A DNA stretch of 64,000 bases, taken from positions 1 through 64,000 of the forward strand of contig NZ_PQIA01000008.1 in assembly GCF_003385235.1 (NCBI RefSeq), in the 5' to 3' direction. Below the pieces are notes generated by a model. That model was not told the DNA's origin, searched no databases, and saw only the letters and a list, made by a program, of their open reading frames with translations. The position numbers and the translations under genes are program-made. Positions 26,448-59,265 of this stretch are shown piece by piece. The stretch's first letter is position 1. Every line of letters starts with the position of its first letter. The DNA comes from Amycolatopsis circi (lineage in GTDB: Bacteria > Actinomycetota > Actinomycetes > Mycobacteriales > Pseudonocardiaceae).

Positions 26448-27467
26448 ATGGCGCGCATCGCCTACCTCGTCTCGAGTGCGAAGGAGATCGAGCTCGCCGA
26501 CGGCAGCCGGCACACCACTGGCTACTTCGCCGAGGAGGCCGTCAAACCGTATGACCGGTTCGTCGACGCCGGGGCCGAGGTGGTGGTGCTGACGCCCGAC
26601 GGGGAGCCGCCGTTCGCGGATCCCTACGGGCTGGAGCCGTTTTTCCACTACCCCGAACCAGACCAGGACTTCTTCGCGTCCGTGACTCGCACGTTCCACC
26701 ACGACCCGGACGACATCCGGATCACGCTGCACCAGACCACCGAACTGGGCCTGGTCGCCGCGCGGCGGATCGCCGAACGGCTCAAAGCCCGCGGGCTCTC
26801 GCCCGCCGAGGCCCACGCACTGGTCAGCAAGGCGGCCAAGATCGCCTGGCGCCAGGACCGGCAGCTCGCCGACGTGATGGTGGACGACGGTCTCGACGGC
26901 GGCCTGCCGGCGAGGGAGATCCGGGCAGCGGCCGCCGAACTGGACGCCGCGAGTCGTCAGCTGGCCGCGGACCGCAAGGCGCGGCTGGACGCCATCCCCG
27001 GCTTCCGGCAGCCCGCCTCGCTGGCGGGCCTGAGCGACGCACAGCTCGCCGAGTTCGACGCCATTTTCGCCCCGGGCGGACACGGGCCCATGGTCGATCT
27101 CGCCGACAACCCCGCCGTGGCAAGGCTGCTGAAGGTCCTACACGACAAACAGGCCCCGATCGCCGCGCTGTGCCACGGGCCCGCGCTGCTGTTGTCGGCC
27201 CCCGAACGCGACGACGGGCAGTGGCTCTTCGACGGGTACCGCCTCACCTGCTTCACCGACGAGGAGGAGGACCAGACGGTGCCGGGCAAGCTCGGCCTGC
27301 CGTGGTACGTCGACACGGCGCTCAAGAACGCGGGCGCGGTGTTCGACGACGGGCCGTCCGCGTGGGTCTCGCACGTGGTCGTGGACCGGAACCTGATCAC
27401 CGGCCAGAACCCCGCCTCCACGGAGGCGACGGCCGACGCGTTGCTGAAGGCGGTGGGACAGCGATGA
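26448..27467 (+). CDS. DJ-1/PfpI family protein with a large helical insertion
   Basis: 339 aa with GGAGG seven bases before ATG. The N-terminal strand region (RIAYLVSSAKEIELADGSRH, TGYFAEEAVKPYDRFVDAGA) and the C-terminal DJ-1 core (EFDAIFAPGGHGPMVDLADN, ALCHGPALLLS with C242, NLITGQNPAST) are normal. Residues about 65-190 form an extra, mostly helical block (HQTTELGLVAARRIAERLKA, GLSPAEAHALVSKAAKIAWR) that the divergent paralog lacks. First gene of the operon leading into the monooxygenase; its TGA overlaps the next ATG. It may protect against reactive aldehydes made by the pathway (inference). Confidence 0.85.
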   Translation: MARIAYLVSSAKEIELADGSRHTTGYFAEEAVKPYDRFVDAGAEVVVLTPDGEPPFADPYGLEPFFHYPEPDQDFFASVTRTFHHDPDDIRITLHQTTELGLVAARRIAERLKARGLSPAEAHALVSKAAKIAWRQDRQLADVMVDDGLDGGLPAREIRAAAAELDAASRQLAADRKARLDAIPGFRQPASLAGLSDAQLAEFDAIFAPGGHGPMVDLADNPAVARLLKVLHDKQAPIAALCHGPALLLSAPERDDGQWLFDGYRLTCFTDEEEDQTVPGKLGLPWYVDTALKNAGAVFDDGPSAWVSHVVVDRNLITGQNPASTEATADALLKAVGQR

Positions 27468-27955
27468 AACTCTTCACCCGCAAGGACCAGGACGAACACC
27501 GGGCCGATGCCGCCGGGGACCGGGCCGAAGCACCGCCGTCGCAGACCGTGTCCGCATTCCTGACCGCGTTCGGCAAGCGCGACATCGACGTTGCGATGTC
27601 CTTTGTGGACGATGCCGGTCGGGCGGTCATCCACCCGACCGGACTGCGCGAAGGCGGACCTGCCGATCTGCGGGCCTTCCTCACTGAGACCGCCACCGCG
27701 TTCCCGGACCTGCGCGTGACGGTGAAGAACCTGATCGAGACGGGCTCCGTGGTCACCGCGGAGCTGAAAGTGGAGGGCACGCAGGCGGCGGGCTACCTCG
27801 GCGCGATCAACCAGGAGAAGCATCTCGACGTGGACCAGGCCTGGCGATTCACCGTCTCCGGTGACCGCATCACCGGCGTCGACGCCTACTGGTGCCAGAA
27901 CCAGCTGTACCGGCGGCTCGCCGTGAAGCGCCTCGACCAGATCTCGCTCGTGTGA
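27464..27955 (+). CDS. SnoaL/NTF2-like protein
   Basis: 163 aa. After a charged N-terminus the NTF2 cone appears: SQTVSAFLTAFGKRDIDVAM, ADLRAFLTETATAFPDLRVT and VDQAWRFTVSGDRITGVDAY. This is the SnoaL-like polyketide-cyclase fold family that also covers isomerases and hydratases. Catalytic residues cannot be assigned. It overlaps the PfpI gene and precedes a second SnoaL-like gene, so both probably act on substrate or product of the monooxygenase. Confidence 0.75.
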   Translation: MKLFTRKDQDEHRADAAGDRAEAPPSQTVSAFLTAFGKRDIDVAMSFVDDAGRAVIHPTGLREGGPADLRAFLTETATAFPDLRVTVKNLIETGSVVTAELKVEGTQAAGYLGAINQEKHLDVDQAWRFTVSGDRITGVDAYWCQNQLYRRLAVKRLDQISLV

Positions 27956-27965
27956 GGGGAATCCG

Positions 27966-28439
27966 ATGACGACAACCGAACCGCGGAGCCGCAGCCGGGA
28001 AGCCGCTGGACAGGTCACCGCCTTCTTCGACGCCTATCGGCGGCACGACGTCGACGCGATGACCGACCTGTGCGCCGACAACGCCGACTTCTTCTACGTG
28101 CCGTTCGAGGTGTGGGGGAAGCAGCGCGTGCTGCGCGCCGACGGCAAGGTGAAGACGGTCGGCAAGACCATCTGGGTCGGGCTGATCGCCTCCTTCCCCG
28201 ACTTGTTCGCCGACGTCCACACCGTCGACGCGAACGACACCGGCGACGTGGTGGTCGCCTGCGACATCGGCGGCAGCCAGCAGCTCGCCTGGGGCGCCGC
28301 GGAGCCGAGAGGGCAGAAGTTCAGCGAGCCTCACCTGTTCATCTTCCACGTCGATGGCGACGGGCTCATCGACCGGATCTCCGCCTACTGGGACGGGGCA
28401 GGCATCAACCGCCAGCTCGGCCACCTCGAAGTCGACTGA
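27966..28439 (+). CDS. SnoaL/NTF2-like protein
   Basis: 157 aa, ten bases after the previous gene. NTF2-like pattern: AAGQVTAFFDAYRRHDVDAM, DFFYVPFEVWGKQRVLRADG, VGKTIWVGLIASFPDLFADV, KFSEPHLFIFHVDGDGLIDR. Its resemblance to the neighbour is limited to the fold, so it is a second family member rather than a recent duplicate. Role in the pathway unknown. Confidence 0.75.
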   Translation: MTTTEPRSRSREAAGQVTAFFDAYRRHDVDAMTDLCADNADFFYVPFEVWGKQRVLRADGKVKTVGKTIWVGLIASFPDLFADVHTVDANDTGDVVVACDIGGSQQLAWGAAEPRGQKFSEPHLFIFHVDGDGLIDRISAYWDGAGINRQLGHLEVD

Positions 28440-28453
28440 GAAGGGAAGCACCG

Positions 28454-29983
28454 ATGACGCTGCTGAAGCGGGAAGAGTGGCAGGGGTTCGTCCGCGACGT
28501 CGACTGGACCTACAGCTACGTCGACGACGAGGCCGTGTTCCCCGAATGGCACAGCGGCACCGGCAAGGTGCCGCGGGAAGTCTGGCTGGGCTGGGAAGAG
28601 GACTACAAGGTCACCTACCCCGACTACGTGACGACCCAGCGCGACAAGGAGCAGTCCGCGTACGCGGTCAAGGCCGCGCTCCAGCGCTCGACCGCGTTCG
28701 ATCACCTCGACGAGGGCTGGAAGTCCTCGACCAAGATGCACTTCGGCGGCGTCGCGCTGGTCGAGTACGCGGCCGTGCTCGGCGAACTGAAAATGGCACG
28801 GTTCGGGCTCAACGCGGCCTGGCGCAACATGGCCGCCTTCGGTCAGCTGGACGAGCTGCGGCACGCGCAGATCACCACGTTCTTCGGGCACGAGTTCATC
28901 AAGAAGGACCCGCAATACGACTGGACCCAGAAGACGTTCCACATGGACAACTGGGTGCCGATCTCACTGCGGAATCTGTTCGACGGCATGATGATCGCGC
29001 CGAACGTGGTGGACCTGGCGATCGCGCTGCCGTTCACCTTCGAGACCGGGTTCACCAATCTGCAGTTCATCGCGCTCTCGGCCGACGCGCTGGAGGCGGG
29101 CGACGTGAACTTCGCCAACATGATCTCCTCGATCCAGACCGACGAAGCCCGCCACTCGCAGCAGGGCGGCCCCACGATGGAGATCCTCGTCGAGCACGAC
29201 CCCGTGCGCGCCCAGTGGATCATCGACAAGAACTTCTGGGGCTCGGCCCGCGCGTTCGCCGCGCTCACCGGCCCGGCGATGGACTACTACACCCCGCTGG
29301 AACACCGGAAGCAGTCCTACCGGGAGTTCATGGAGGAATGGATCGTCGACCAGTTCGTCCGCACGATCGAGGACTACGGGCTGAAGAAGCCGTGGTTCTG
29401 GGACGAGTTCATGCGCGGCCTCGACACCTGGCACCACGGGCTGCACATGGGCCTGTGGACCTGGCGTCCGACGCTGTGGTGGCGCCCGAAGGCCGCCGTC
29501 AGCAAGGACGAGCGCGACTGGCTGCGCGAGAAGTACCCGAACTGGGAGAACGTCTACGGCGACAAGTGGGACGTGATCATCGACAACATCAACGCCAACA
29601 ACGTCGAGGCCACGCTCCCCGAGACCCTGCCGTGGCTGTGCAGCATGTGCAACCTGCCCTGCTGCAACGCCGAGCAGACGCGGTCCGGCCGGTGGCGCGT
29701 CCCGACCTGGCAGCTGGACTACGACGGCAAGACCCATCACTTCTGCACCAACGCCTGCCGCCAGATCTGGTGGAAGGACCGCGACAACGTCAACCACGAG
29801 ACGCTGATCGACCGGTTCCTCGCCGGGCAGATCCAGCCGATGGACGTCGGCGGCATCCTCGCCCACATGGGCCTCACGCCCGAGGTGATGGGCGACGACC
29901 CGGACTACGAGGCCTGGACCAGGGACTACGTCGGCCGTCCCGCGAAGGGCCTGGCACTGGCCGCCGGCACCGGGGAGGAGTGA
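28454..29983 (+). CDS. Group-2 soluble diiron monooxygenase hydroxylase, alpha subunit
   Basis: 509 aa, with GGAAG upstream. It aligns through its length with toluene-4-monooxygenase TmoA. All six diiron ligands occur at TmoA-like positions: E104 (EYAAVLGE), E134 and H137 (DELRHAQ), E197 (TFETGFTN), E231 and H234 (QTDEARHSQQGGP). Later motifs PAMDYYTPLEHRKQSYREFM and VDRFLAGQIQPMD-type (IDRFLAGQIQPMDVGG) are also conserved. Unlike TmoA, residues about 395-440 contain CSMCNLPCCN and HFCTNACRQIWW, a YHS-like cysteine set known from some phenol/alkene monooxygenases. It catalyses O2-dependent hydroxylation or epoxidation of an aromatic or alkene; the substrate is not determinable here. Confidence 0.93.
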   Translation: MTLLKREEWQGFVRDVDWTYSYVDDEAVFPEWHSGTGKVPREVWLGWEEDYKVTYPDYVTTQRDKEQSAYAVKAALQRSTAFDHLDEGWKSSTKMHFGGVALVEYAAVLGELKMARFGLNAAWRNMAAFGQLDELRHAQITTFFGHEFIKKDPQYDWTQKTFHMDNWVPISLRNLFDGMMIAPNVVDLAIALPFTFETGFTNLQFIALSADALEAGDVNFANMISSIQTDEARHSQQGGPTMEILVEHDPVRAQWIIDKNFWGSARAFAALTGPAMDYYTPLEHRKQSYREFMEEWIVDQFVRTIEDYGLKKPWFWDEFMRGLDTWHHGLHMGLWTWRPTLWWRPKAAVSKDERDWLREKYPNWENVYGDKWDVIIDNINANNVEATLPETLPWLCSMCNLPCCNAEQTRSGRWRVPTWQLDYDGKTHHFCTNACRQIWWKDRDNVNHETLIDRFLAGQIQPMDVGGILAHMGLTPEVMGDDPDYEAWTRDYVGRPAKGLALAAGTGEE

Positions 29984-29986
29984 GCC

Positions 29987-30289
29987 ATGCCCGAGACCGT
30001 CGAGCTGGGTCCTGAGGACCAAGCGCCGCAGCTGGTGCCGCTCAACGCGATCTTCGCGGACGACTTCGTGCAGATCCTGGTGCCGGTCACCACCGCGGAC
30101 ACGATCCGGGAGGTGGCGGCCGCGGTCGCCCACCACGTCGAGGGCAAGCGCGTGCGGGCCCGCGACGCCGAGAAGGTCGTGTTCCACAAAGGACGGCGGC
30201 TGCCGCCGGAGCTGACCGTGGCCGAGGCGGGCATCGGGCCGCTGGACCACGTCCGCGTCGAGTACGACCTGCCGGAGGGAGCACGGTGA
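29987..30289 (+). CDS. Diiron monooxygenase gamma subunit (TmoB-like)
   Basis: 100 aa, three bases after the alpha gene. The ubiquitin-like TmoB pattern is visible: VPLNAIFADDFVQILVPVTT, DTIREVAAAVAHHVEGKRVR and a C-terminal LTVAEAGIGPLDHVRVEYDL. It is a structural subunit of the hydroxylase. The length is slightly above that of TmoB. The next gene starts with a GTG overlapping its stop. Confidence 0.85.
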   Translation: MPETVELGPEDQAPQLVPLNAIFADDFVQILVPVTTADTIREVAAAVAHHVEGKRVRARDAEKVVFHKGRRLPPELTVAEAGIGPLDHVRVEYDLPEGAR

Positions 30290-30603
30290 AGAACCCAGTG
30301 GGCCCGATCCTGCGGATGGGCGACGAGGTGGAGCAGGTGATCGCGGCGATCGAGGACGACAACCCGGACAAGGAGATCGAAGTCATCGACCGGGGCGCGT
30401 ACGTCCGGGTCCAGGGCGAGGACCGGGTGGTGCTGACCGAGGAGACGCTGCGGCGCTACCTCGGCCACGAGTTCGAGATCCGCTCGCTCGAGACCATGAT
30501 GTCGTCCTTCGCCGGGCGCGCCATCACCACGAGCGGCGCGATCGTCTGGGAACGGATCTCGGCGCGGAAAGCCGCGTCGGCCGGTGAAGGGGTGAAGGCA
30601 TGA
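30286..30603 (+). CDS. Diiron monooxygenase effector/coupling protein (TmoD/MmoB family)
   Basis: 105 aa from GTG 30286. NPVGPILRMGDEVEQVIAAI, then DRGAYVRVQGEDRVVLTEET and RRYLGHEFEIRSLETMMSSF, is the MmoB/DmpM fold that docks on the hydroxylase and tunes O2 activation. In tmo-type operons the effector follows the Rieske gene; here it comes before the beta subunit. It overlaps both neighbours by four bases. Confidence 0.88.
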   Translation: MKNPVGPILRMGDEVEQVIAAIEDDNPDKEIEVIDRGAYVRVQGEDRVVLTEETLRRYLGHEFEIRSLETMMSSFAGRAITTSGAIVWERISARKAASAGEGVKA

Positions 30604-31631
30604 CACAGCCGAAGAAAGCAAGGCCGCGCAAGACGTTCAGCGCGTTCGGCGACATCCGCCGGATGCCGAGCGACTACGAGATCGTCACGCACGCCCAGAA
30701 CTGGACGCTGCGCAAGAACCGCACCGGCGCGTTCGAGCAGAACCCGTCCTCGCCGGCCAACCTGTGGTTCCTGACCTACCGCGACAAATCGCCGTTGCAG
30801 GTCGAGGACTGGGACGCCTTCCGCGACCCGGATGCGTTGACCTACAAGACCTACGTGACGGTGCAGGCGGAAGCCGAGGCGAAGACCGGTGGTGTGCTCG
30901 ACGAGTACGCGGGTTCGGACGCCGCGCTCGCGCCCGGCCAGCTGGCCCTGCTGACCTCCCTGTTCACGCCGTCGCGGTACCTCCTGCACGGCTGCCAGCA
31001 GATCCAGGCGTACCTCGGTTACCTGGCCCCGACCTCGTATGTGACCAACACGGCGGGTTTCGCCACGGCTGACTACCTGCGCCGGGTCACGCTGACCGCG
31101 TACCGGACCCGCGAGTTGCAGATCGCGCACCCGGACAGCGGGGCCGGCACCGCCGAGCGGCGGCTGTGGGAAACGCTCGACGCCTGGCAGCCGGCCCGGC
31201 GCGCGGTGGAGAAGGCGCTCGTCAGCTACGACTGGGGCGAGGCGTTCGTCGCGCTGAACCTGGTGCTGGCGCCGACGTTCGACGACGTGCTGGTGCGGCA
31301 GTTCAAAGAGGTCTCGCGCGAGAACCGGGACGAAGAGTCCTGGCTGCTGCTGTCGTTCCTGCAGGAGGACAACAACCGGCGCAACCGGTGGAGTTCGGCG
31401 CTGGCGCGGTTCGCCGTCGAGCAGCGGCGGTCGAACGCCGACGTGCTGCGGCGCTGGATCGACCGCTGGTCGCCGATCGCGGACGCGGCGGCGGCCGGGC
31501 TGGGCGAGCTGCTCGAGACCCGGCCGGAGCACGGCCGTCCGGCGAGCGAGGTGGCCGCCGGCGCGAAGGCCGCCCGCGAGGCGTTCCACGAGCCGATCTT
31601 CGAGCCGGAAGCGAGGCGTGCGGCGCGATGA
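30600..31631 (+). CDS. Diiron monooxygenase hydroxylase, beta subunit (TmoE-like)
   Basis: 343 aa. RPRKTFSAFGDIRRMPSDYE, then IVTHAQNWTLRKNR, is the typical beta-subunit opening. SLFTPSRYLLHGCQQIQAYL and SYVTNTAGFATADYLRRVTL follow the ferritin-like fold without iron ligands. The length matches TmoE. It pairs with alpha and gamma as an (alpha-beta-gamma)2 hydroxylase and overlaps the Rieske gene by four bases. Confidence 0.9.
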   Translation: MTQPKKARPRKTFSAFGDIRRMPSDYEIVTHAQNWTLRKNRTGAFEQNPSSPANLWFLTYRDKSPLQVEDWDAFRDPDALTYKTYVTVQAEAEAKTGGVLDEYAGSDAALAPGQLALLTSLFTPSRYLLHGCQQIQAYLGYLAPTSYVTNTAGFATADYLRRVTLTAYRTRELQIAHPDSGAGTAERRLWETLDAWQPARRAVEKALVSYDWGEAFVALNLVLAPTFDDVLVRQFKEVSRENRDEESWLLLSFLQEDNNRRNRWSSALARFAVEQRRSNADVLRRWIDRWSPIADAAAAGLGELLETRPEHGRPASEVAAGAKAAREAFHEPIFEPEARRAAR

Positions 31632-31954
31632 GCGGAACCGTGACCGGGCAGTGGCAGGAGGCGATGCAGCTCGACGAGCTGTGGGAAGGCGAGATGGCGG
31701 GCGTCGAGGTCGGCGGGGAGAAGGTCCTGCTGATGAACATCGACGGCGACGTGCGGGCGTACCGGAACCGCTGCCCGCACCAGGCCTGGGCGCTCGACGA
31801 GGGCGACTTCGACGGCGAGACCCTCACCTGTTCCCGGCACCTGTGGGAGTTCGACGCCCGCAGCGGCACCGGCGTGAACCCGGACAACTGCCGCCTCGCC
31901 TCGTTCCCCTGCCGGGTGGACGAGGACGGCACGATCCGGGTGGACGTCGGATGA
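31628..31954 (+). CDS. Rieske-type ferredoxin of the monooxygenase (TmoC-like)
   Basis: 108 aa. The two Rieske boxes are complete: C49-P-H51 in NRCPHQAWALDEG and C68-S-R-H71 in TCSRHLWEFD, which bind a [2Fe-2S] cluster with two Cys and two His. It carries electrons from the reductase to the hydroxylase. It overlaps the beta gene and the reductase gene by four bases each. Confidence 0.92.
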   Translation: MSGTVTGQWQEAMQLDELWEGEMAGVEVGGEKVLLMNIDGDVRAYRNRCPHQAWALDEGDFDGETLTCSRHLWEFDARSGTGVNPDNCRLASFPCRVDEDGTIRVDVG

Positions 31955-33186
31955 CGACCCGGCGTTGTGTGCTCGTGGGCGGCGGTGTCGCTGCCGCGTC
32001 GGCCGCCGCCCACCTGCGCAAACAGGGCTTCGACGGCGACGTCGTGCTGGTCGGCGAGGAGGTGGAAGCGCCGTACGAGCGGCCGCCGCTGTCGAAGGAA
32101 TTCCTGACGGGGCCGCCCGAGCTGGTGCGGCCGAGGGAACCCGACTGGTACGCGGCCAACGACGTCGAGCTGCGGCTCGGCGTGCGCGCCGTGGCCCTCG
32201 ACGTGGCAGGCCGAAGCGTGGGACTGTCCACAGGGGAGCGGCTGAGTTACGACGACCTGGTGCTGGCCACGGGTGCCCGGCCGCGGCACCTTCCCGGGTT
32301 CGAGGGCGAGGGTATCCACTACCTGCGCACGGCCGCCGACGCCGGACGACTGCGTGCCGAACTGGCGACGGCGCAGCGGATCGCGATCCTTGGCGCCGGG
32401 TTCATCGGATGCGAGGTGGCCGCGTCCGCCACCTCGCTCGGTGCCCAGGTCACCCTGTTCGAGCCCGAGCCCGCTCCGCTCGCGCGGGTGCTCGGCGCGG
32501 CGATCGGCGCGGTGCTGATGGACATCCATCGCGAACGCGGCGTGGAAATCCGCGCGGGCGAGCACGTCACGGCTGTCGACCGGGGCCGGCACGGTTTCGT
32601 GCTGACCACCAGCCGCGGCGACCGCGTGGAGTCCGATCTGGTGGTGGTCGGCATCGGCTCGCTGCCGAACGTCGAGCTGGGGCAGGACGCCGGGCTCGCC
32701 GTGGCCAGCGGCGGGCTTGCGGTCGACGAATACGGGCGGACCTCGGCGCCGCACGTGTATGCGGCCGGGGACCTCGCGGCCCAGCACCACCCGCGTTACG
32801 GCACGCGGATCCGGGTCGAACACCACGACACCGCCGTGCGCCAGGGCGCGAACGTCGCCGCCAACCTGGCGGGCGAGGCGACGCCCTTCGAGGAGGCGCA
32901 CTGGTTCTGGTCCGACCAGTACGAGCACAGCCTGCAGTCGACCGGCCGCATGGGCGCCTTCGACTCGATGGTGCTCCGCGGTCGGCTGGCCGACCGCAGC
33001 TTCTCGGCGTTCTCGCTGGCGGACGGCCGGATTCAGGGGGTCATCTCGCTCAACCGGCCCGGTGACGTGCTCGCGGCCCGCCGGATGCTGTTCGCGCCGC
33101 ACGAGGTGACGGCCGAGCAACTCGCCGACGAGTCGTTGCCGCTGAAACGGCTGATGCCGCGCACCAAGACAGCATCCCGGGCCTGA
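31951..33186 (+). CDS. FAD-dependent ferredoxin reductase, dioxygenase type
   Basis: 411 aa. The FAD site VLVGGGVAAASAAAHLRKQG lies at residues 7-26, PYERPPLSKEFL at 41-52, the NADH-binding ILGAGFIGCEVAASATSLGA at 146-165, and YAAGDLAAQ near 266. This is the BphA4/TodA-like ferredoxin reductase family with no plant-type [2Fe-2S] domain. Classical TmoF-type reductases instead join a [2Fe-2S] domain to a ferredoxin-NADP-reductase-like module, so the electron chain here uses a different reductase family. Confidence 0.9.
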   Translation: MTTRRCVLVGGGVAAASAAAHLRKQGFDGDVVLVGEEVEAPYERPPLSKEFLTGPPELVRPREPDWYAANDVELRLGVRAVALDVAGRSVGLSTGERLSYDDLVLATGARPRHLPGFEGEGIHYLRTAADAGRLRAELATAQRIAILGAGFIGCEVAASATSLGAQVTLFEPEPAPLARVLGAAIGAVLMDIHRERGVEIRAGEHVTAVDRGRHGFVLTTSRGDRVESDLVVVGIGSLPNVELGQDAGLAVASGGLAVDEYGRTSAPHVYAAGDLAAQHHPRYGTRIRVEHHDTAVRQGANVAANLAGEATPFEEAHWFWSDQYEHSLQSTGRMGAFDSMVLRGRLADRSFSAFSLADGRIQGVISLNRPGDVLAARRMLFAPHEVTAEQLADESLPLKRLMPRTKTASRA

Positions 33187-33217
33187 AGCCCGCCGAGTTC
33201 GCTAAGGAGGAACTGTC

Positions 33218-33949
33218 GTGACGACCATTGCGGTGCTGGAAACGCTGGAGTCCCAGACGCGGGTGACAGCCGCCGATGCCCGAGCGGCGCTGGCGCGAGT
33301 GCGTGGGCTGAGCGTGGTGGACGCGGTCGCGAAGCTGCGGCTGGGGCCGGGTCGTACGTGTGAGCCGGTCGCCCGGGTGCTCGACAAGGCACTGGCGAAC
33401 GCCGGCCGAGCCGGGCTTTCGCCCGGGCAGCTGATCGTGGCCGGCGGTTCCGCCGCACCCGCGGAGCCGATCGTGCGGGTGCGGCGGAAGGCACACGGCA
33501 AAGCCGACTGGATCAGCAGCGAGACAGCCGACGTGCGGGTCGAACTGCAACCGGCGGGTGCGTACGAAGCCGCTGCGGTACCGGTGCCCGTCGGGGCCGC
33601 GGACGAACCCGTCGTCGACCGTGTGCCGGAGGACGCACGGTCGGTTCCGGTGCGGGAGGCGCTTTACGACGTGCTCGACCCCGACCTGGGGGTCAACATC
33701 GTCGACCTGGGGTTCGTGCGGGGCGTGACTGTGGACGAGCACGACGTCGCCACATTGACCATGACGCTGACCTCGCCCGCCTGCCCGCTGACGGGAATCA
33801 TGGAGGACCAGATCCGGACGGCGCTGCTGGACGGCGGGGTCGTCGCGGACTTCCGCGTGGTGTGGGTCTGGTCTCCGCCGTGGCGGCCGTCGGACATCAG
33901 CGACGACGGCCGCGAACAGTTGCACGCCATCGGGTTCAGCAACTTTTGA
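33218..33949 (+). CDS. Ribosomal-protein-uL22-like domain fused to MIP18/DUF59 assembly domain
   Basis: 243 aa from GTG, with AAGGAGG eight bases upstream. Residues 13-111 follow ribosomal protein uL22: RVTAADARAALARVRGLSVV (compare the RG-x-x-V-x-x-A helix), EPVARVLDKALANA and the basic hairpin RVRRKAHGKADWI, ending in a DVRVEL strand. After a short linker, residues 144-243 are a MIP18/DUF59 domain: YDVLDPDLGVNIVDLGFVRG, LTSPACPLTGIMEDQI with C189, and VWSPPWRPSDISDDG. DUF59 proteins help mature Fe-S or metal centres. Its place after the reductase suggests a maturation factor for this monooxygenase; the purpose of the uL22-like half is unknown. It is not a genuine ribosomal protein. Confidence 0.8.
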   Translation: MTTIAVLETLESQTRVTAADARAALARVRGLSVVDAVAKLRLGPGRTCEPVARVLDKALANAGRAGLSPGQLIVAGGSAAPAEPIVRVRRKAHGKADWISSETADVRVELQPAGAYEAAAVPVPVGAADEPVVDRVPEDARSVPVREALYDVLDPDLGVNIVDLGFVRGVTVDEHDVATLTMTLTSPACPLTGIMEDQIRTALLDGGVVADFRVVWVWSPPWRPSDISDDGREQLHAIGFSNF

Positions 33950-33984: not shown

Positions 33985-34275
33985 ATGGCATACGTCGTCG
34001 TCGCGACCTGGGTCGCGAAGCCGGGGCAGGGGGAGAGGATCCGGCAGATCCTGGAAACGGTCACGCCCGGCAACCGGGCGGAAGAGAAAGTGCTGGAGTT
34101 CCAGGCACACGTGAGCCGGGACGACCCGGACACCTTTGTGCTGTACGAGAAGTACGTCGATGCCTCCGGGTACGCCGACCACCGCGCTACCGAGGCGTTC
34201 CAGAAGCACGTGCTCGGCGAAGCGGTCCCGAACCTGGCCGAGCGGAGCGTGCGGGAGTTCGAGACCATCGGGTGA
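33985..34275 (+). CDS. Antibiotic-biosynthesis-monooxygenase (ABM) fold protein
   Basis: 96 aa with GGAGG five bases upstream of ATG 33985. AYVVVATWVAKPGQGERIRQ, FQAHVSRDDPDTFVLYEKYV and YADHRATEAFQKHV show the dimeric alpha-beta barrel of the ABM family. Such small proteins can be cofactor-free oxygenases or product-shaping enzymes. It sits last in the operon, 35 bases after the fusion gene. Confidence 0.85.
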   Translation: MAYVVVATWVAKPGQGERIRQILETVTPGNRAEEKVLEFQAHVSRDDPDTFVLYEKYVDASGYADHRATEAFQKHVLGEAVPNLAERSVREFETIG

Positions 34276-34372
34276 GCGGCCTGCGTCACTCGCCCGGGGA
34301 GCGTAAACTCTCAGGTCCAAACGGCAGAGTCGCCGGTGCGGTCGGGACGGCTCCGTGACGTCGGAGGCAAGC

Positions 34373-35338
34373 ATGGTGCGGTCAGTTCCGCCGCTGGAAG
34401 ACCGGATGACACCCGGCGACCTGATCGCCGAACTGGCGGAACGCGCACCGGAGATCGGCGGCAACACCGGGCTGTGGCCGGGCTTGACGATCTACCGCTT
34501 CCACGAGCCGACCGAGCCGAGCTGGGAAGAGGTCCAGTCGCTGTCGCTGTGCGTGGTCAGCCAGGGTCGCAAGTGCGTGACGGTGGACGGGCAGCCCTAC
34601 CGGTACGACCCGTTCAACTACCTGGTCCTGAACAGTCACCTGCACTTCCAGGCCGAGATCCTCGAGGCCACCGTCACGAAGCCCTTCCTCTCCTTCGTGC
34701 TGCAGATCGACCCCGCGGTGGTCCGGCGGGTGTCGGTGGAAATGCTGGAACAGCGGCGCGCGGAAATGCTGGCCGACAGCCCTCCGGATCCGTCGAATGC
34801 CTTCGTCTCGGCCCTGGACTCCGGGCTGATGAGTTCGGTCATCCGGTTCCTGCGGGCGCTGTCCACCGGACCGGACCGGCGGATCCTCGCACCCGCGTAC
34901 CTGCAGGAGATGGTCTACCGCGTGCTTCAGGCCGAGCAGTACGAGCGGCTGCTGGAAATCGCCGCGGCGCAGCAGAACCACGATCCGGTCGCGCGGGTCG
35001 TCACGTTCATCCAGGACAACCTGGCCGAGCCGCTGACCGTCACCGACATGGCGGAGCAGGTGGCGATGAGCCCGTCGGCGCTGACCGCACTGTTCCGGCA
35101 GTCGACCGGGAAGTCGCCGTACCAGTTCGTCAAGGAGATGCGGCTGACCAAGGCGCGGGACCTGCTGGTGCGGGGAAACGGCACCGTCGTGTCGGTATCC
35201 CGGGCGGTCGGCTACCCGAGCGCGTCGCACTTCATCAACGAGTTCCGCCGCCGCTTCGGGTTGCCGCCGCGGGCGTACTGCGACCTGAGCACGCTCCGTT
35301 CACAGCTGGGCGCGCAGCACACCGCGAACCCCACCTGA
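34373..35338 (+). CDS. AraC-family transcriptional regulator, paralog of the one at 24496
   Basis: 321 aa. The ATG at about 34373 is preferred over an upstream GTG because GGAGG lies six bases before it. The AraC_N part (TIYRFHEPTEPSWEEVQSLS, VVSQGRKCVTVDGQPYRYDP) and the HTH part (EPLTVTDMAEQVAMSPSALT, TGKSPYQFVKEMRLTKARDL, GYPSASHFINEFRRRFGLPP) are nearly collinear with the 24496 protein. Two related regulators bracketing the catabolic operon suggest layered control or a duplication that built the island. Confidence 0.9.
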   Translation: MVRSVPPLEDRMTPGDLIAELAERAPEIGGNTGLWPGLTIYRFHEPTEPSWEEVQSLSLCVVSQGRKCVTVDGQPYRYDPFNYLVLNSHLHFQAEILEATVTKPFLSFVLQIDPAVVRRVSVEMLEQRRAEMLADSPPDPSNAFVSALDSGLMSSVIRFLRALSTGPDRRILAPAYLQEMVYRVLQAEQYERLLEIAAAQQNHDPVARVVTFIQDNLAEPLTVTDMAEQVAMSPSALTALFRQSTGKSPYQFVKEMRLTKARDLLVRGNGTVVSVSRAVGYPSASHFINEFRRRFGLPPRAYCDLSTLRSQLGAQHTANPT

Positions 35339-38769: not shown

Positions 38770-41334
38770 ATGCGTCCCGTCACCAGCATCGTCCGGTTCC
38801 TGGGCGGACTACTCGCCCTGACCGCGATCCTCGCCGGGCTGCCGACCGCCTTCTGGACCTTCCGCGACGTCCTGCTCCCGAACCACGTGCACACCGTCGC
38901 CGACGTGCTGGCCGCACTCGTCACACGCGACAGCGGGCAGATCTTCCTGACCCTGCTTGCATTCGCGGGCGTCGTCGCTTGGCTGCAACTCGCCGCCGCA
39001 GTACTCGTCGAAGCGACCGGCCGCCTCCGCAGACTCCCGGTGCGTCAGGTCTTCGGGCTCGGCTGGGCGAGGAAGCTCGTCGCCGGAGTACTGCTGCTGA
39101 TGATCGGGACCGCCACCGTCGCCACCGCGGCGGAACCGCCCGTCGCTCCCGCGTCGCAGTCGCGCACGACTGCCTACCTCGTGCGACCCGGGGACAGTCT
39201 GATGCGCATCGCCGCCGAACAACTCGGCGACGAACGCCGCTACACCGAGATCTACGACCTCAACCACGCCCGCCGCCAGCCCGACGGGGAAACCCTCCGC
39301 GACGTCGCACTGATCAAACCGGGATGGCACCTCGACCTGCCCGCGAAGACGCCAAGCAACGGATACCGTGTGCAGCGAGGCGAAACCCTGACGTCGATCG
39401 CCCGTGACCGGCTCGGCAACGCGGGCCGCTACCAAGAAATCCTGCGGCTCAACAAGAACCTGCACAACCCGGACGTGATCCGCGCTGGCGACACCCTGCA
39501 GCTGCCGACCGCCTTGCCCACCGTCCCCGCACCGCGACCACCTCAACCGCAGCCCTCGACACCGTCTCCGCCGGTGACCAGCCCGATCCCTGCGCCGGCC
39601 GCGAAGCAGGAGACCAGCGCACAACCGGCACCGTTGCCCGGCCCGGCAGTCAACACGCCGCTCGTCATCGCGGGAGCCGTCGGACTGGCGGCGGCCGCTG
39701 TCCTGAGCGCGGTCGGCATCCGCCGCCTCCGAGCAGCCCGCCGGCACGACCCGGGCGGAGCGAAGGCCGGACTGGTTGAGGACCCGCTCGACAATCTGGA
39801 CCGTGCCTTGCGCCAGTTCGCTCGTCACGCCGAGCGCGAGGGGAGCAAGCTGCCGGGAATCCGGATGGTCCGCCTCGGCAGCAAGGAAACAACCGTTCTT
39901 CTGGACGAGCCCGCGGATCCGATCGCGCCGTTCACTGCCACCGCGACCAGCACAAAATGGGAATTGACCCACCCGGTCCCGCCGAGTCACGCGGACGGAG
40001 ATGCTCCATACCCGTTCTTGACCGGCCTCGGCCACGACCCGGACGGCAACCTGATCCTGCTGGGCCTCGACCACATCGGTGCACTTCTCCTCGACGGAGA
40101 GCCGGAGGACATCGCGGAGGTCGGCGCGGCTATAGCTCTTGAAATCGCCAGCTCGCCCTGGGCACACGACGTCACCGTCGACCTCGTCCGCGCCGGGCAC
40201 CTCCTCGACGGCACAGACGGCATCGAACGCCATCAGTCAGTCGAGGACCTCCTCGAGCATCTGGCCGACTCCATCGAGCGACGTCCGCACGTCGTGATCG
40301 TGCCGAGCCCCCTTGCGCAGGACGACGTCGACCGTCTCGCCACCAGCGACGCCGCGGCCGACATCGTCGCCGTCGTCGCAGGCACCGGTTCGGGCACGCA
40401 CGTCCCTGGCGCATGGGAACTCGACCTCCGCCAGCACCCGACCCCGGTGGAACAACTCGACGTCCGCGTCGCACTGCAGCGTCTCCCGCAGGACGAACCA
40501 CCGGATATTGCCGAGACCGCCGGTCGCGCTCCGGACGAGACTGTCGCCCGCCCATCGCGGGCGGAGCGAGACGAGCCCGAGACGTCTGCCGAGACCGGCC
40601 CCGAACCGGCGGTGCCGGAGCTGCGGCTTCTCGGCCGGGTCTCGCTGCGCGGCGTCGACTACAGCCGGGTCGAAGGCAAGAAGGTCAACCGCCTCACCGA
40701 ACTGGCCGCGTTCCTGGCTCTCAATCCGGGAGTCCACGCCGACGAGATCTCGCAGCAGTTGGGCACCGCGACCCAGCCGTGGTCGGCCGCCACCAGGCAG
40801 GGCTACATCTCCCGCCTGCGCACCTGGCTCGGCCACGATCCCGACGGCGCGCTGTATCTGCCGAACGTGGATGCCAAGAATGGCGGCTACCGCCTCGCCG
40901 ACACTGTGCTCTGCGACTGGTTCCGATTCCAGCACCTCGTCAAGACCGCAACCGGCGAGAATCGGCTCAACCGACTGCAGCAAGCGCTCGACCTGGTCGA
41001 CGGCCTGCCGTTGAGCAACGTTCCGCGAGGCCGCTACGAATGGAGTTCCTGGCACCAACGCGACATGATCGACCAGATCGTCGAGGTTGCCCATACACTC
41101 GTGACCGCATACCGAGCTGCCGGTGACCTCACGCTGGCGCGCCGAGCCGCCGCCCGCGGGCTCCGCGCCGAACCGGTGAGCGAACTCCTCAGCCGTGACT
41201 TGTTGCAGACCGAGCTTTCGGCAGGGAACCGTGTTGCAGCTGCTGCCGTCGCGGGTCGGCTCGAGGAAACCAGCGTCGTGCTGGGCGTCCCGCTGGAGGA
41301 CGACACCCGCGACCTGCTGAAACAAACCCGGTAG
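38770..41334 (+). CDS. LysM-BTAD transmembrane protein
   Basis: 854 aa. Membrane helices occur at about 8-28, 57-80 and 103-121. Two LysM peptidoglycan-binding repeats follow at 135-190 (YLVRPGDSLMRIAAEQLGDE) and 199-246 (YRVQRGETLTSIARDRLGNA), then a Pro-rich linker and another helix at about 295-318. The cytoplasmic-type C-terminal part ends with a winged-helix/BTAD module from about 630 (RLLGRVSLRGVDYSRVEGKK, ATRQGYISRLRTWLGHDPDG, DMIDQIVEVAHTLVTAYRAA). LysM-BTAD proteins are regular partners of actinobacterial Tad loci and may link wall sensing with regulation. Confidence 0.8.
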   Translation: MRPVTSIVRFLGGLLALTAILAGLPTAFWTFRDVLLPNHVHTVADVLAALVTRDSGQIFLTLLAFAGVVAWLQLAAAVLVEATGRLRRLPVRQVFGLGWARKLVAGVLLLMIGTATVATAAEPPVAPASQSRTTAYLVRPGDSLMRIAAEQLGDERRYTEIYDLNHARRQPDGETLRDVALIKPGWHLDLPAKTPSNGYRVQRGETLTSIARDRLGNAGRYQEILRLNKNLHNPDVIRAGDTLQLPTALPTVPAPRPPQPQPSTPSPPVTSPIPAPAAKQETSAQPAPLPGPAVNTPLVIAGAVGLAAAAVLSAVGIRRLRAARRHDPGGAKAGLVEDPLDNLDRALRQFARHAEREGSKLPGIRMVRLGSKETTVLLDEPADPIAPFTATATSTKWELTHPVPPSHADGDAPYPFLTGLGHDPDGNLILLGLDHIGALLLDGEPEDIAEVGAAIALEIASSPWAHDVTVDLVRAGHLLDGTDGIERHQSVEDLLEHLADSIERRPHVVIVPSPLAQDDVDRLATSDAAADIVAVVAGTGSGTHVPGAWELDLRQHPTPVEQLDVRVALQRLPQDEPPDIAETAGRAPDETVARPSRAERDEPETSAETGPEPAVPELRLLGRVSLRGVDYSRVEGKKVNRLTELAAFLALNPGVHADEISQQLGTATQPWSAATRQGYISRLRTWLGHDPDGALYLPNVDAKNGGYRLADTVLCDWFRFQHLVKTATGENRLNRLQQALDLVDGLPLSNVPRGRYEWSSWHQRDMIDQIVEVAHTLVTAYRAAGDLTLARRAAARGLRAEPVSELLSRDLLQTELSAGNRVAAAAVAGRLEETSVVLGVPLEDDTRDLLKQTR

Positions 41335-57459: not shown

Positions 57460-59200
57460 TTTCGATATCGATCCGTGGGCAGTGCTGGACGATGCGCTCG
57501 GCGTCGACTCGGCCGTCGTTGCTGAGGAGCAGATCGGTTCGTTGGCGTTCTACGGGCGGTGCTCGACGGAGGACAACCAGGATCCGGAGACCTCGCTGGG
57601 TTGGCAGCTGGGGAACGCCACGAAGTTCGTTGGCCCGCTGGGCGGAGAAGTAGTTGCGCAGTACTTCGACGTTGGCCAGTCGCGTTCGGTGCCGTGGGAG
57701 CGGCGGGATGCGGGTGCGCAGTTGTTGGCCGCGCTCAAGGATTCACGGCGAGAGTGGACCGGCGTTGTGGTCGGCGAGGGGACGCGCTGCTGGTTCGGGA
57801 ACCAGTTTTCGCTGATTGCTCCCCGATTCGCGGCGTACGGGGTGGATCTTTGGGTTCCGGAGCTGGGCGGGAAGTTCGATGCGCGCAATCCGTCGCACAA
57901 GATGCTGATGAGCGTGCTCGGTGGGATGAGTGAGTCGGAACGTCAGCACGTTCAGGCGCGGGTCCGATCGGCGATGGACGCGCAGGTGATTAACGAAGGG
58001 CGGCATCAGGGCGGCCGGGCACCGTACGGGTATCGAGTGGTGGACGGGGGTCCGCATCCGAATCCGCGGAAGGCTGCTGAGGGGTTCCGGCTGCGGGTGC
58101 TGGAAATCGATGAGCCTGTGGCGGATGTGGTGCGCCGGATATTCGCCGAGTATTTGGCAGGCGTGGGCGACCGCGTCATCGCTCGTGGGCTGAACCAGGA
58201 CGGCATTCCGTGTCCGTCGAAGGCGCGGCCGGAGCAGAACCGGCACCGTCCGGGAGACGGCTGGCAGGGCTCGACTGTCCGGGCGATCCTAGAGAATCCC
58301 AGGTACACGGGTTACGCGGTTTTCGGGCGCTGGACGAAGCACGAGCGTCTGCTGAATCCGGACGACGTGAGCGCTGGTTACGTCGTGCGGTTCCGGAAGT
58401 CGGATCCGGGCACGGTGGTTCGGTCGCGGCGGCAGTCGCATCCGGAGATCGTGTCGGTGGAGACGTTCGCGCAGGCACAGCTGCTGCGGCGGTCGCGGGG
58501 CGCTGGCGGGATGCGTGGTATCGCGAAGCTGGAGCGGGACCGACCCACGTCGAAGAACGTCTACCTGCTGAAAGGTCTGATTCGCTGCGAGATCTGCGGC
58601 CGGAAGATGCAGGGCGCGCCGATCCGGAAGACGGTGTACTACCGGTGCATGGCCAGGACGTTGGCACCCGGATCACCCGCGCTGGAGAGCCACCCGAAGA
58701 CGGTCAATCTGCGCGAAGACGTCGTGATGCCAGCGTTGAACGGCTGGCTGTGTCAGGTGTTCGACCCGGCGAACCGGGACGATACGGTCGCCGCACTGGT
58801 GGCTTCGCAGGGCGGGACGCACTCGACCGGCAGGGAGTCAGCGGAGAAGCGGTTGGCTGATGCGGAGTCGCGGTTGCGCCGACATCAGGCGGCGATCGAG
58901 GCGGGTGTGGATCCGGCCGCGGTGGTCGAGGCGATCAACACGGCGCAGGCGGAGCGGGAGGCGGCGCGCGCCGAGTTGCAGCACTTGCCCAAGGTGACCG
59001 TGATCGAGGCGGCGGAGGTCTACGCGCGGCTCGATTCGATGGACGACGTGGCCCGAGCGCTGAACTCGCGGACGCCGGAGCGGATCACGCGGGTCTACCA
59101 GGACCTCGGCGTGCAACTCCGCTATGACAATGAAAAAGAGGCGGTCGTAGTGACCGCCTCTCCCCGTGTGTCTAACGTGTGTGTCCGAGGGGGGACTTGA
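57449..59200 (+). CDS. Large serine recombinase (element integrase)
   Basis: 583 aa. The resolvase domain begins LAFYGRCSTEDNQDPETSLG with nucleophile S39, and continues to GMSESERQHVQARVRSAMDA. The recombinase domain GRAPYGYRVVDGG through STVRAILENPRYTGYAVFGR follows. The zinc ribbon has C-x-x-C (IRCEICGRKMQ) and a later YYRC, and the coiled-coil segment is AEKRLADAESRLRRHQAAIE. The last codons run across the tRNA terminator (59137-59161) and the tRNA 3' end (59182-59200), ending VCVRGGT. The attachment site is therefore probably inside the tRNA-Leu 3' end, and the C-terminus is encoded by att sequence. Confidence 0.9.
   Translation: MTADFDIDPWAVLDDALGVDSAVVAEEQIGSLAFYGRCSTEDNQDPETSLGWQLGNATKFVGPLGGEVVAQYFDVGQSRSVPWERRDAGAQLLAALKDSRREWTGVVVGEGTRCWFGNQFSLIAPRFAAYGVDLWVPELGGKFDARNPSHKMLMSVLGGMSESERQHVQARVRSAMDAQVINEGRHQGGRAPYGYRVVDGGPHPNPRKAAEGFRLRVLEIDEPVADVVRRIFAEYLAGVGDRVIARGLNQDGIPCPSKARPEQNRHRPGDGWQGSTVRAILENPRYTGYAVFGRWTKHERLLNPDDVSAGYVVRFRKSDPGTVVRSRRQSHPEIVSVETFAQAQLLRRSRGAGGMRGIAKLERDRPTSKNVYLLKGLIRCEICGRKMQGAPIRKTVYYRCMARTLAPGSPALESHPKTVNLREDVVMPALNGWLCQVFDPANRDDTVAALVASQGGTHSTGRESAEKRLADAESRLRRHQAAIEAGVDPAAVVEAINTAQAEREAARAELQHLPKVTVIEAAEVYARLDSMDDVARALNSRTPERITRVYQDLGVQLRYDNEKEAVVVTASPRVSNVCVRGGT
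59132..59161 (-). terminator. Intrinsic terminator of tRNA-Leu, inside the recombinase frame
   Basis: AGAGGCGGTC at 59137-59146 pairs perfectly with GACCGCCTCT at 59152-59161 across a five-base loop. On the minus strand the hairpin is followed by TTTTT (59133-59137), a classical Rho-independent terminator about 20 bases after the tRNA. It lies within the last codons of the plus-strand recombinase gene. Confidence 0.8.
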
Positions 59201-59265
59201 ACCCCCACGTCCGTTAAGGACACTAGCACCTCAAGCTAGCGCGTCTGCCATTCCGCCACTCGGAC
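59182..59265 (-). tRNA. tRNA-Leu (anticodon GAG)
   Basis: 84 nt. The acceptor stem is GTCCGAG (59265-59259) with CTCGGAC (59189-59183), and discriminator A at 59182. The D-arm is GTGGCGGAATGGCAGACGC; the anticodon stem CTAGC/GCTAG encloses TTGAGGT with anticodon GAG. A long variable arm GTGTCCTTAACGGAC marks a class II tRNA, and the T-arm contains GGTTCAAGTCCCC. CCA is not encoded. A serine recombinase frame overlaps its 3' 19 bases from the other strand. Confidence 0.95.

Follow-up and report, generated by a model that had tools for sequence, protein, structure and literature searches.

Why would an operon for a multicomponent diiron monooxygenase carry a gene whose product joins a domain resembling ribosomal protein uL22 to a DUF59/MIP18 domain, and what might such a protein do there? 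The gene lies in a contig of Amycolatopsis circi, of which a stretch of 64,000 nucleotides, hereafter called the window, was analysed.

The fusion gene and its operon

The fusion gene (33218–33949, strand +) starts with GTG and encodes a protein of 243 amino acids. Pfam Ribosomal_L22 matched residues 12–110 with 54.3 bits (cut-off 28; E 1.7e-14) and FeS_assembly_P/DUF59 matched residues 145–204 with 61 bits (cut-off 23.5). The fusion of a uL22-like and a DUF59 domain described in the first-pass annotation was thus recovered, both models exceeding their cut-offs. Residues 112–143 form the linker between the two domains, and the hairpin of the L22-like domain is IVRVRRKAHGKADWI (residues 85–99). 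The strong ribosome site and the position directly behind the reductase, also described there, were borne out: AAGGAGG lies 7 nt before the GTG, and the gene starts 31 bp after the reductase stop codon. The gene order, from DJ-1/PfpI to AraC, is as follows.

26448–27467, strand +, DJ-1/PfpI family protein, here taken as the first operon gene (Pfam)
27464–27955, strand +, SnoaL-like protein 1 (Pfam; open reading frame 27170–27955, ATG at 27464)
27966–28439, strand +, SnoaL-like protein 2 (Pfam)
28454–29983, strand +, diiron hydroxylase alpha subunit of the TouA/TmoA type, with a C-terminal four-cysteine YHS-like motif (Pfam, PDB search, alignment)
29987–30289, strand +, TmoB-type gamma subunit (Pfam)
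30286–30603, strand +, MmoB/DmpM-type effector protein (Pfam)
30600–31631, strand +, hydroxylase beta subunit (Pfam)
31628–31954, strand +, Rieske [2Fe-2S] ferredoxin (Pfam)
31951–33186, strand +, FAD-dependent ferredoxin reductase, AndAa/HcaD-like (NCBIfam, 341.6 bits, below the AndAa cut-off of 650)
33204–33210, strand +, ribosome-binding site AAGGAGG, 7 nt 5′ of the GTG start
33218–33949, strand +, L22-like/DUF59 fusion protein, 243 aa (Pfam, both models above cut-off)
33254–33550, strand +, L22-like domain, residues 13–111 (Pfam, profile search, hhalign, alignment)
33647–33946, strand +, DUF59/MIP18 (FeS_assembly_P) domain, residues 144–243, with the DUF59 cysteine C189 (Pfam)
33985–34275, strand +, ABM-domain protein of the antibiotic biosynthesis monooxygenase family (Pfam, scan from 33979; start read off the sequence)
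34355–35338, strand +, AraC-family regulator (NCBIfam)

The NCBIfam calls of the reductase and the AraC-family regulator all lie below equivalog cut-offs. A DJ-1/PfpI gene is also present in those relatives whose locus extends far enough. For the searches described below, the alpha query spanned 28445–29983, three residues more than the subunit as listed (28454–29983).

The alpha subunit aligned along its length with TouA (PDB 1t0q; E 4.8e-169), and the aligned E/E/H positions, which we take to be the metal ligands, are kept. In contrast to this likeness to TouA/TmoA, the reductase of the operon is closest to AndAa/HcaD, and we know of no L22-like gene in TouA or TmoA operons. Flanking genes were scanned in P. 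dioxanivorans, P. autotrophica and G. hydrophobica and revealed no consistent substrate pathway. Identity as a defence system was dropped, as PADLOC gave no match. Elsewhere in the window, a large protein with a LysM domain is encoded at 38770–41334, beside short open reading frames that presumably have the look of Tad/Flp pilus genes. The sole Rfam match in the window is a tRNA-Leu (anticodon gag, 59181–59265, strand −).

The two halves of the protein

A profile of 22 L22-like domains, searched against the PDB, matched 107 distinct sequences at E ≤ 0.01 (best E 5.4e-19). Among the matches listed (60 of the 107), 59 were named L22, uL22 or L17, the last being the eukaryotic name of uL22, and one was an AT1G52370 protein; two of the PDB alignments span the domain with a one-residue gap. 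Comparison of the profile with rplV by hhalign gave a probability of 98.8% and an E-value of 6.2e-17 and was colinear over the whole domain, hairpin included, whereas control profiles from the same operon (TmoB, effector, ABM, Rieske, SnoaL and DUF59) reached at most 0.3%. Together with the Pfam score, these searches rule out chance similarity, and the homology of residues 13–111 to uL22, proposed at the outset, is confirmed at the level of sequence and profile comparison.

Membership of the uL22 homologous superfamily, as defined by Pfam Ribosomal_L22, does not extend to ribosomal uL22 itself, from which the domain is set apart by both the rplV equivalog cut-off and the residues fixed in rplV. 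The NCBIfam model rplV_bact matched the fusion (E 2.5e-11) with 43.8 bits, below the equivalog cut-off of 73.65, a score in keeping with a diverged paralogue. Nor is the domain a native rplV out of place, since the source genome carries its normal rplV on a different contig (146.3 bits versus 45.0 for the domain of the fusion). Twelve residues found in 57–59 of 59 rplV sequences (K20, K53, S57, N61, P83, T84, P90, R91, R95, K101, R102 and H105), which we take to be rRNA contacts in uL22, occur in 0–4 of 34 unique L22-like domains. The replacement of K53 by R is mild, and R91 and R95 are often replaced by K. Residues fixed in the L22-like domains are C48 (33/34), R53, R90 and W98 (34/34 each) and H93 (all 33 sequences without a gap there), and another twelve are common to both groups (R15, G30, A36, L40, A58, A62, R87, A92, G94, A96, I99 and T103). 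Since 29 of the 59 rplV sequences were the best scorers against the L22-like profile, the rplV set is, if anything, biased towards likeness.

Domain length is 99 residues in 18 of 22 L22-like rows and about 100 in most rplV rows. The hairpin motif R-x-R-R-x-A-H-G-x-A-x-W-I is complete in 33 of the 34 unique sequences. Over residues 13–111, the mean net charge is +3.3 (range −1 to 9) in L22-like domains versus +8.9 (4 to 17) in rplV, with overlapping ranges. In a tree with the 59 rplV sequences the 22 L22-like domains form one clade (100/100), for which the program warned of long branches. Unlike rplV, the L22-like gene is part of a catabolic operon and has DUF59 as its partner, either fused or separate. 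With a normal rplV retained and twelve rplV-fixed residues mostly gone, the L22-like half is probably not a second ribosomal protein.

It is accordingly very improbable that the L22-like protein takes the place of uL22 in a subset of ribosomes and thereby positions DUF59 at the tunnel exit to load metal co-translationally. The globular part of uL22 does lie near the tunnel exit, and the hairpin aligned with rplV without gap columns in the comparison of 22 sequences, one degenerate copy excepted, with AxGxA and R87 kept. These points are outweighed by the presence of a normal rplV and by the twelve residues, which are held by at least 57 of 59 rplV sequences and at most 4 of 34 L22-like domains. 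In addition, where the two genes are split, DUF59 is a separate protein and would lack a tether to the ribosome.

Binding of RNA by the L22-like domain, for instance of the operon mRNA, either for autogenous regulation or to keep translation close to DUF59, also appears improbable. The lower mean charge speaks against it, as do the loss from most sequences of K20, N61, R91, K101, R102 and H105 and the absence of any Rfam family from the operon, by which a known RNA element was dropped as a candidate. On the other hand, the uL22 ancestor binds rRNA and the first strand of the hairpin remains basic (R87, R89 and R90). The domain encoded in the window itself carries a net charge of +7, which falls between the rplV extremes of 4 and 17, so that RNA binding would here be compatible with charge alone.

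The C-terminal half belongs to the DUF59 family by its Pfam score, and C189 is present in all 17 aligned fusions. Its top match in the PDB is SufT (5ird; E 5.8e-34), limited to residues 137–241 of the fusion. Although the DUF59 fold and the conserved cysteine are shared with SufT, the protein falls outside the housekeeping SufT group: the operon DUF59 proteins (fused, split and that of relative G080, see below) are separated by a 100/99 branch from 26 SufT-type rows, of which L042 is annotated in a suf operon and the others, DUF59 matches of family genomes, were taken as SufT. The NCBIfam PaaD models matched within residues 144–241 with 71.8 and 41.2 bits, below their equivalog cut-offs of 180 and 108.15, respectively, which leaves the fusion outside PaaD as well.

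Linkage to the monooxygenase and evolution

The distribution of the gene was surveyed in one genome per species (84,980 species) using two alignment motifs, a scan that strongly diverged members could escape. It yielded 20 loci in Amycolatopsis, Streptomyces, Pseudonocardia, Rhodococcus, Arthrobacter, Nocardia, Gordonia, Actinomycetospora and actinobacterial MAGs. All 20 adjoin the same monooxygenase genes; as the fusion proteins of L046 and L047 and those of L056 and L057 are identical, they represent 18 distinct loci. On three contigs (L047, L053 and L059) the operon is partial, and L053 is without a reductase match. L047 is a short contig of Amycolatopsis echigonensis and L046 belongs to Pseudonocardia dioxanivorans CB1190, so that their identity points to recent transfer or assembly contamination.

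A class-wide search of 394 genomes, in which at most 11 candidates per genome were scored, gave a family-like score (173.5 bits) only for the source genome among the matches listed. The next best of these, with 82.3 bits, lies in the rplV range, and the matches listed for this set of 394 genomes gave no sign of a second, widespread L22 family. Among 150 family genomes, DUF59 matched at E ≤ 1e-20 in 148, and the full-length fusion in only three: G000, G118 and G146, the last twice and once with a stop. This second operon of G146 (L035; G146:C1:3358000–3372000) is decayed, with no alpha match, fragmented beta and reductase genes and a fusion gene with an internal stop. Among 191 plasmid matches, a single record, from Rhodococcus koreensis, covered at least 80% of the fusion protein; this plasmid carries the same operon, with the fusion annotated as iron-sulfur cluster assembly protein.

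The reverse search, with alpha as the query in 390 genomes of the family, gave 27 matches at E ≤ 1e-180 in 23 genomes, 26 of them with at least 71% identity. Following exclusion of L164, L174 and L178, whose contigs end too early, 23 assessable alphas of this identity were left (the window and 22 relatives), two of which, in G766 and G767, accompany identical fusion proteins. All 23 have the L22-like gene just 3′ of the reductase; in the 22 relatives, the L22 domain begins 18–69 nt from the end of the reductase match, on the same strand. The first-pass annotation had tied the fusion to a diiron monooxygenase and had named a neighbourhood survey beforehand as a refuting test. The tie withstood it, and the linkage expected of a maturation factor holds at 20 of 20 loci and in 23 of 23 assessable operons.

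More distant alphas mark the edge of this linkage. G125, with 59% alpha identity and the same neighbouring genes, has neither the L22-like gene nor DUF59, so the general enzyme type can do without them. No L22-like match was found near three alphas of 46–47% identity in the 150-genome subset or near a broken alpha remnant in G093. At about residues 396–437, alpha carries a YHS-like motif of four cysteines (CxxC...CxxxC), which was observed in all 19 aligned alphas of the clade and in G125 and is absent from the three relatives of 46–47% identity. A link of the L22-like and DUF59 parts to this motif, or to the Rieske gene, was ruled out, since G125 has both; neither therefore marks the client.

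Among the 23 assessable operons, 13 have the fused gene; in eight, L22-like and DUF59 are encoded side by side by separate genes, which in G122 overlap by 4 bp. The remaining two are G080, with a lone L22-like gene and the DUF59 gene at the other side of the operon, and the second operon of Amycolatopsis rubida (L054/L176), with a stand-alone L22-like gene, a DUF59 gene, a short reductase-like remnant and then a second, fused copy with a broken hairpin. A further operon-type DUF59 gene, 67% identical over the domain, was observed in G102 (contig C20; L007/L040), in a 16-kb stretch without a match to other operon genes; in the tree it groups with the DUF59 of G080.

In a tree of 35 alphas, from which near-copies were left out and in which A. 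rubida locus 2 was labelled split despite its degenerate fusion, the 21 fused rows form one clade (98/99, or 100/99 when the long row of G125 is omitted). Closest to this clade stand five split rows, joined to it at 95/95; the other rows branch nearer the base without resolution. On the simplest reading of this topology, split genes are the basal state and one recruitment was followed by one fusion; G125 may represent an outgroup or a loss. What the gene comparisons show is thus a uL22 paralogue in this operon and its relatives, standing alone beside a dedicated DUF59 gene basally and fused to it in one clade. Given the single clade, the counted residue losses and a separate-gene form still found in living species, the family resembles a clear-cut example of a universal ribosomal protein that left the ribosome, the L22 copy apparently having been taken up by soil actinobacteria.

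That the L22-like gene merely hitch-hikes, without a role in the enzyme, is scarcely credible. For seven pairs, dN/dS was 0.15–0.46 in the L22 and 0.14–0.44 in the DUF59 domain, with saturated dS in one pair; both domains thus stay below 0.5 in 7/7 pairs, and the linker values are not always above those of the domains (L058/L062 and L045/L061). The gene is kept in 23/23 operons, and its residues are fixed over 34 sequences. Two cases of decay would fit hitch-hiking, the degenerate fusion copy of A. rubida locus 2 and the decayed second operon of G146, of which the former adjoins an intact L22-like copy.

A candidate maturation factor

To our knowledge, iron acquisition by bacterial multicomponent diiron monooxygenases is poorly understood, and functional heterologous expression of these enzymes is a recognised difficulty. 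Accessory chaperonins and a DUF59 protein matter for diiron monooxygenases, according to the available parts of the sources (PMC4498308, PMC7994243, PMC11057499). In particular, PaaD, like the fusion a DUF59 protein encoded with a diiron multicomponent monooxygenase (in the phenylacetyl-CoA epoxidase operon), is indispensable in vivo, though not in vitro, for the diiron epoxidase PaaABCE; in contrast to the fusion, PaaD is not described with a uL22 part in the portion of this source that was available (PMC4498308). Operons of the prmABCD type likewise carry accessory genes 3′ of a diiron monooxygenase, namely a metal-sulfur cluster gene, a GroEL gene and, in some strains, an ABM gene, as far as the accessible text of the source goes (PMC4428276). 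By analogy with these systems, we lean towards reading the product of the fusion gene as a maturation (assembly) factor dedicated to this clade of TouA/TmoA-type diiron monooxygenases.

In such a factor, the DUF59 half would, like SufT and PaaD, link the SUF machinery to the client via the conserved C189, as family knowledge suggests. The studied SufT, which acts via a conserved cysteine, has SufS, SufU and client proteins as binding partners but binds no iron, according to the part of the source at hand (PMC9045647), which makes direct iron delivery by DUF59 doubtful. The uL22-derived half may be the client-recognition part, since it is the part specific to this operon and the hairpin is its most conserved stretch. 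Its globular face and long hairpin would hold the client, more probably the apo-hydroxylase than the Rieske protein, during insertion of iron or of the cluster, and the factor may partly replace the GroEL-like chaperonins dedicated to other diiron monooxygenases. In the ribosome, the tunnel hairpin of uL22 touches nascent chains. More tentatively, and with rather less confidence than we attach to a maturation role as such, a universal ribosomal protein may have been converted in one event into the client-recognising part of an assembly factor for a metalloenzyme, the hairpin holding the unfolded or apo hydroxylase and DUF59 directing metal insertion. If true, this would amount to a new class of enzyme maturase derived from a ribosomal protein.

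The first-pass annotation had suggested a maturation factor acting co-translationally near the ribosome exit or, alternatively, a uL22 fold re-used to bind an unfolded subunit or RNA. The analogies with PaaD and with the metal-sulfur gene of prm operons make the maturation role the best-fitting proposal, while a site at the ribosome exit is disfavoured by the twelve lost residues and the lower mean charge. Re-use of the fold to bind a subunit would fit better than the ribosome exit.

A rather unlikely variant is that the L22-like protein serves as a folding or holding chaperone for alpha, standing in for MimG/MmoG, with DUF59 only adding Fe-S delivery to the Rieske protein. Other diiron monooxygenases need GroEL-like chaperonins, according to the available parts of three papers (PMC7994243, PMC7570240, PMC11057499). 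In both genomes compared, no dedicated chaperonin lies beside the operon: the two GroEL genes of the source genome are on other contigs than the operon, and the three of P. dioxanivorans are more than 150 kb from its fused operon. The stand-alone L22-like gene of the split operons is in line with a chaperone, too. Its pairing and fusion with a dedicated DUF59 lineage nevertheless suggest a shared step, and G125 is without L22-like and DUF59 genes while no GroEL was recognised by eye in the part of its locus inspected.

The fusion was also compared with the loci of MimD-type effector genes, of which 31 matches were obtained in 150 genomes of the order. Of these loci, 16 were examined: 11 contain a weak DUF59 match (12–28 bits), and none of the 16 has an L22-like match at E ≤ 1e-3 near the effector gene. 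A shared origin with the DUF59 of prm/mim operons was ruled out, the similarity being weak. With weak DUF59 matches and no L22-like gene at these loci, DUF59 may have entered the operons of diiron monooxygenases on more than one occasion.

That operons of diiron monooxygenases can contain accessory genes of the DUF59 type is already known; the uL22-derived partner, its fusion to DUF59 and its linkage to the monooxygenase are apparently new. In the open-access literature, with few subscription papers covered, neither an L22-like/DUF59 fusion nor an L22-like protein of a monooxygenase operon was found reported. The locus offers an accessory factor in tight linkage with a single enzyme clade, found naturally both fused and split, so that the two halves can be tested separately. 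One genome, probably that of P. dioxanivorans CB1190, has the fused and separate forms together. Replication-relaxation and serine recombinase genes lie 3′ of the P. dioxanivorans operon (L046:13321–17263), which suggests a mobile setting.
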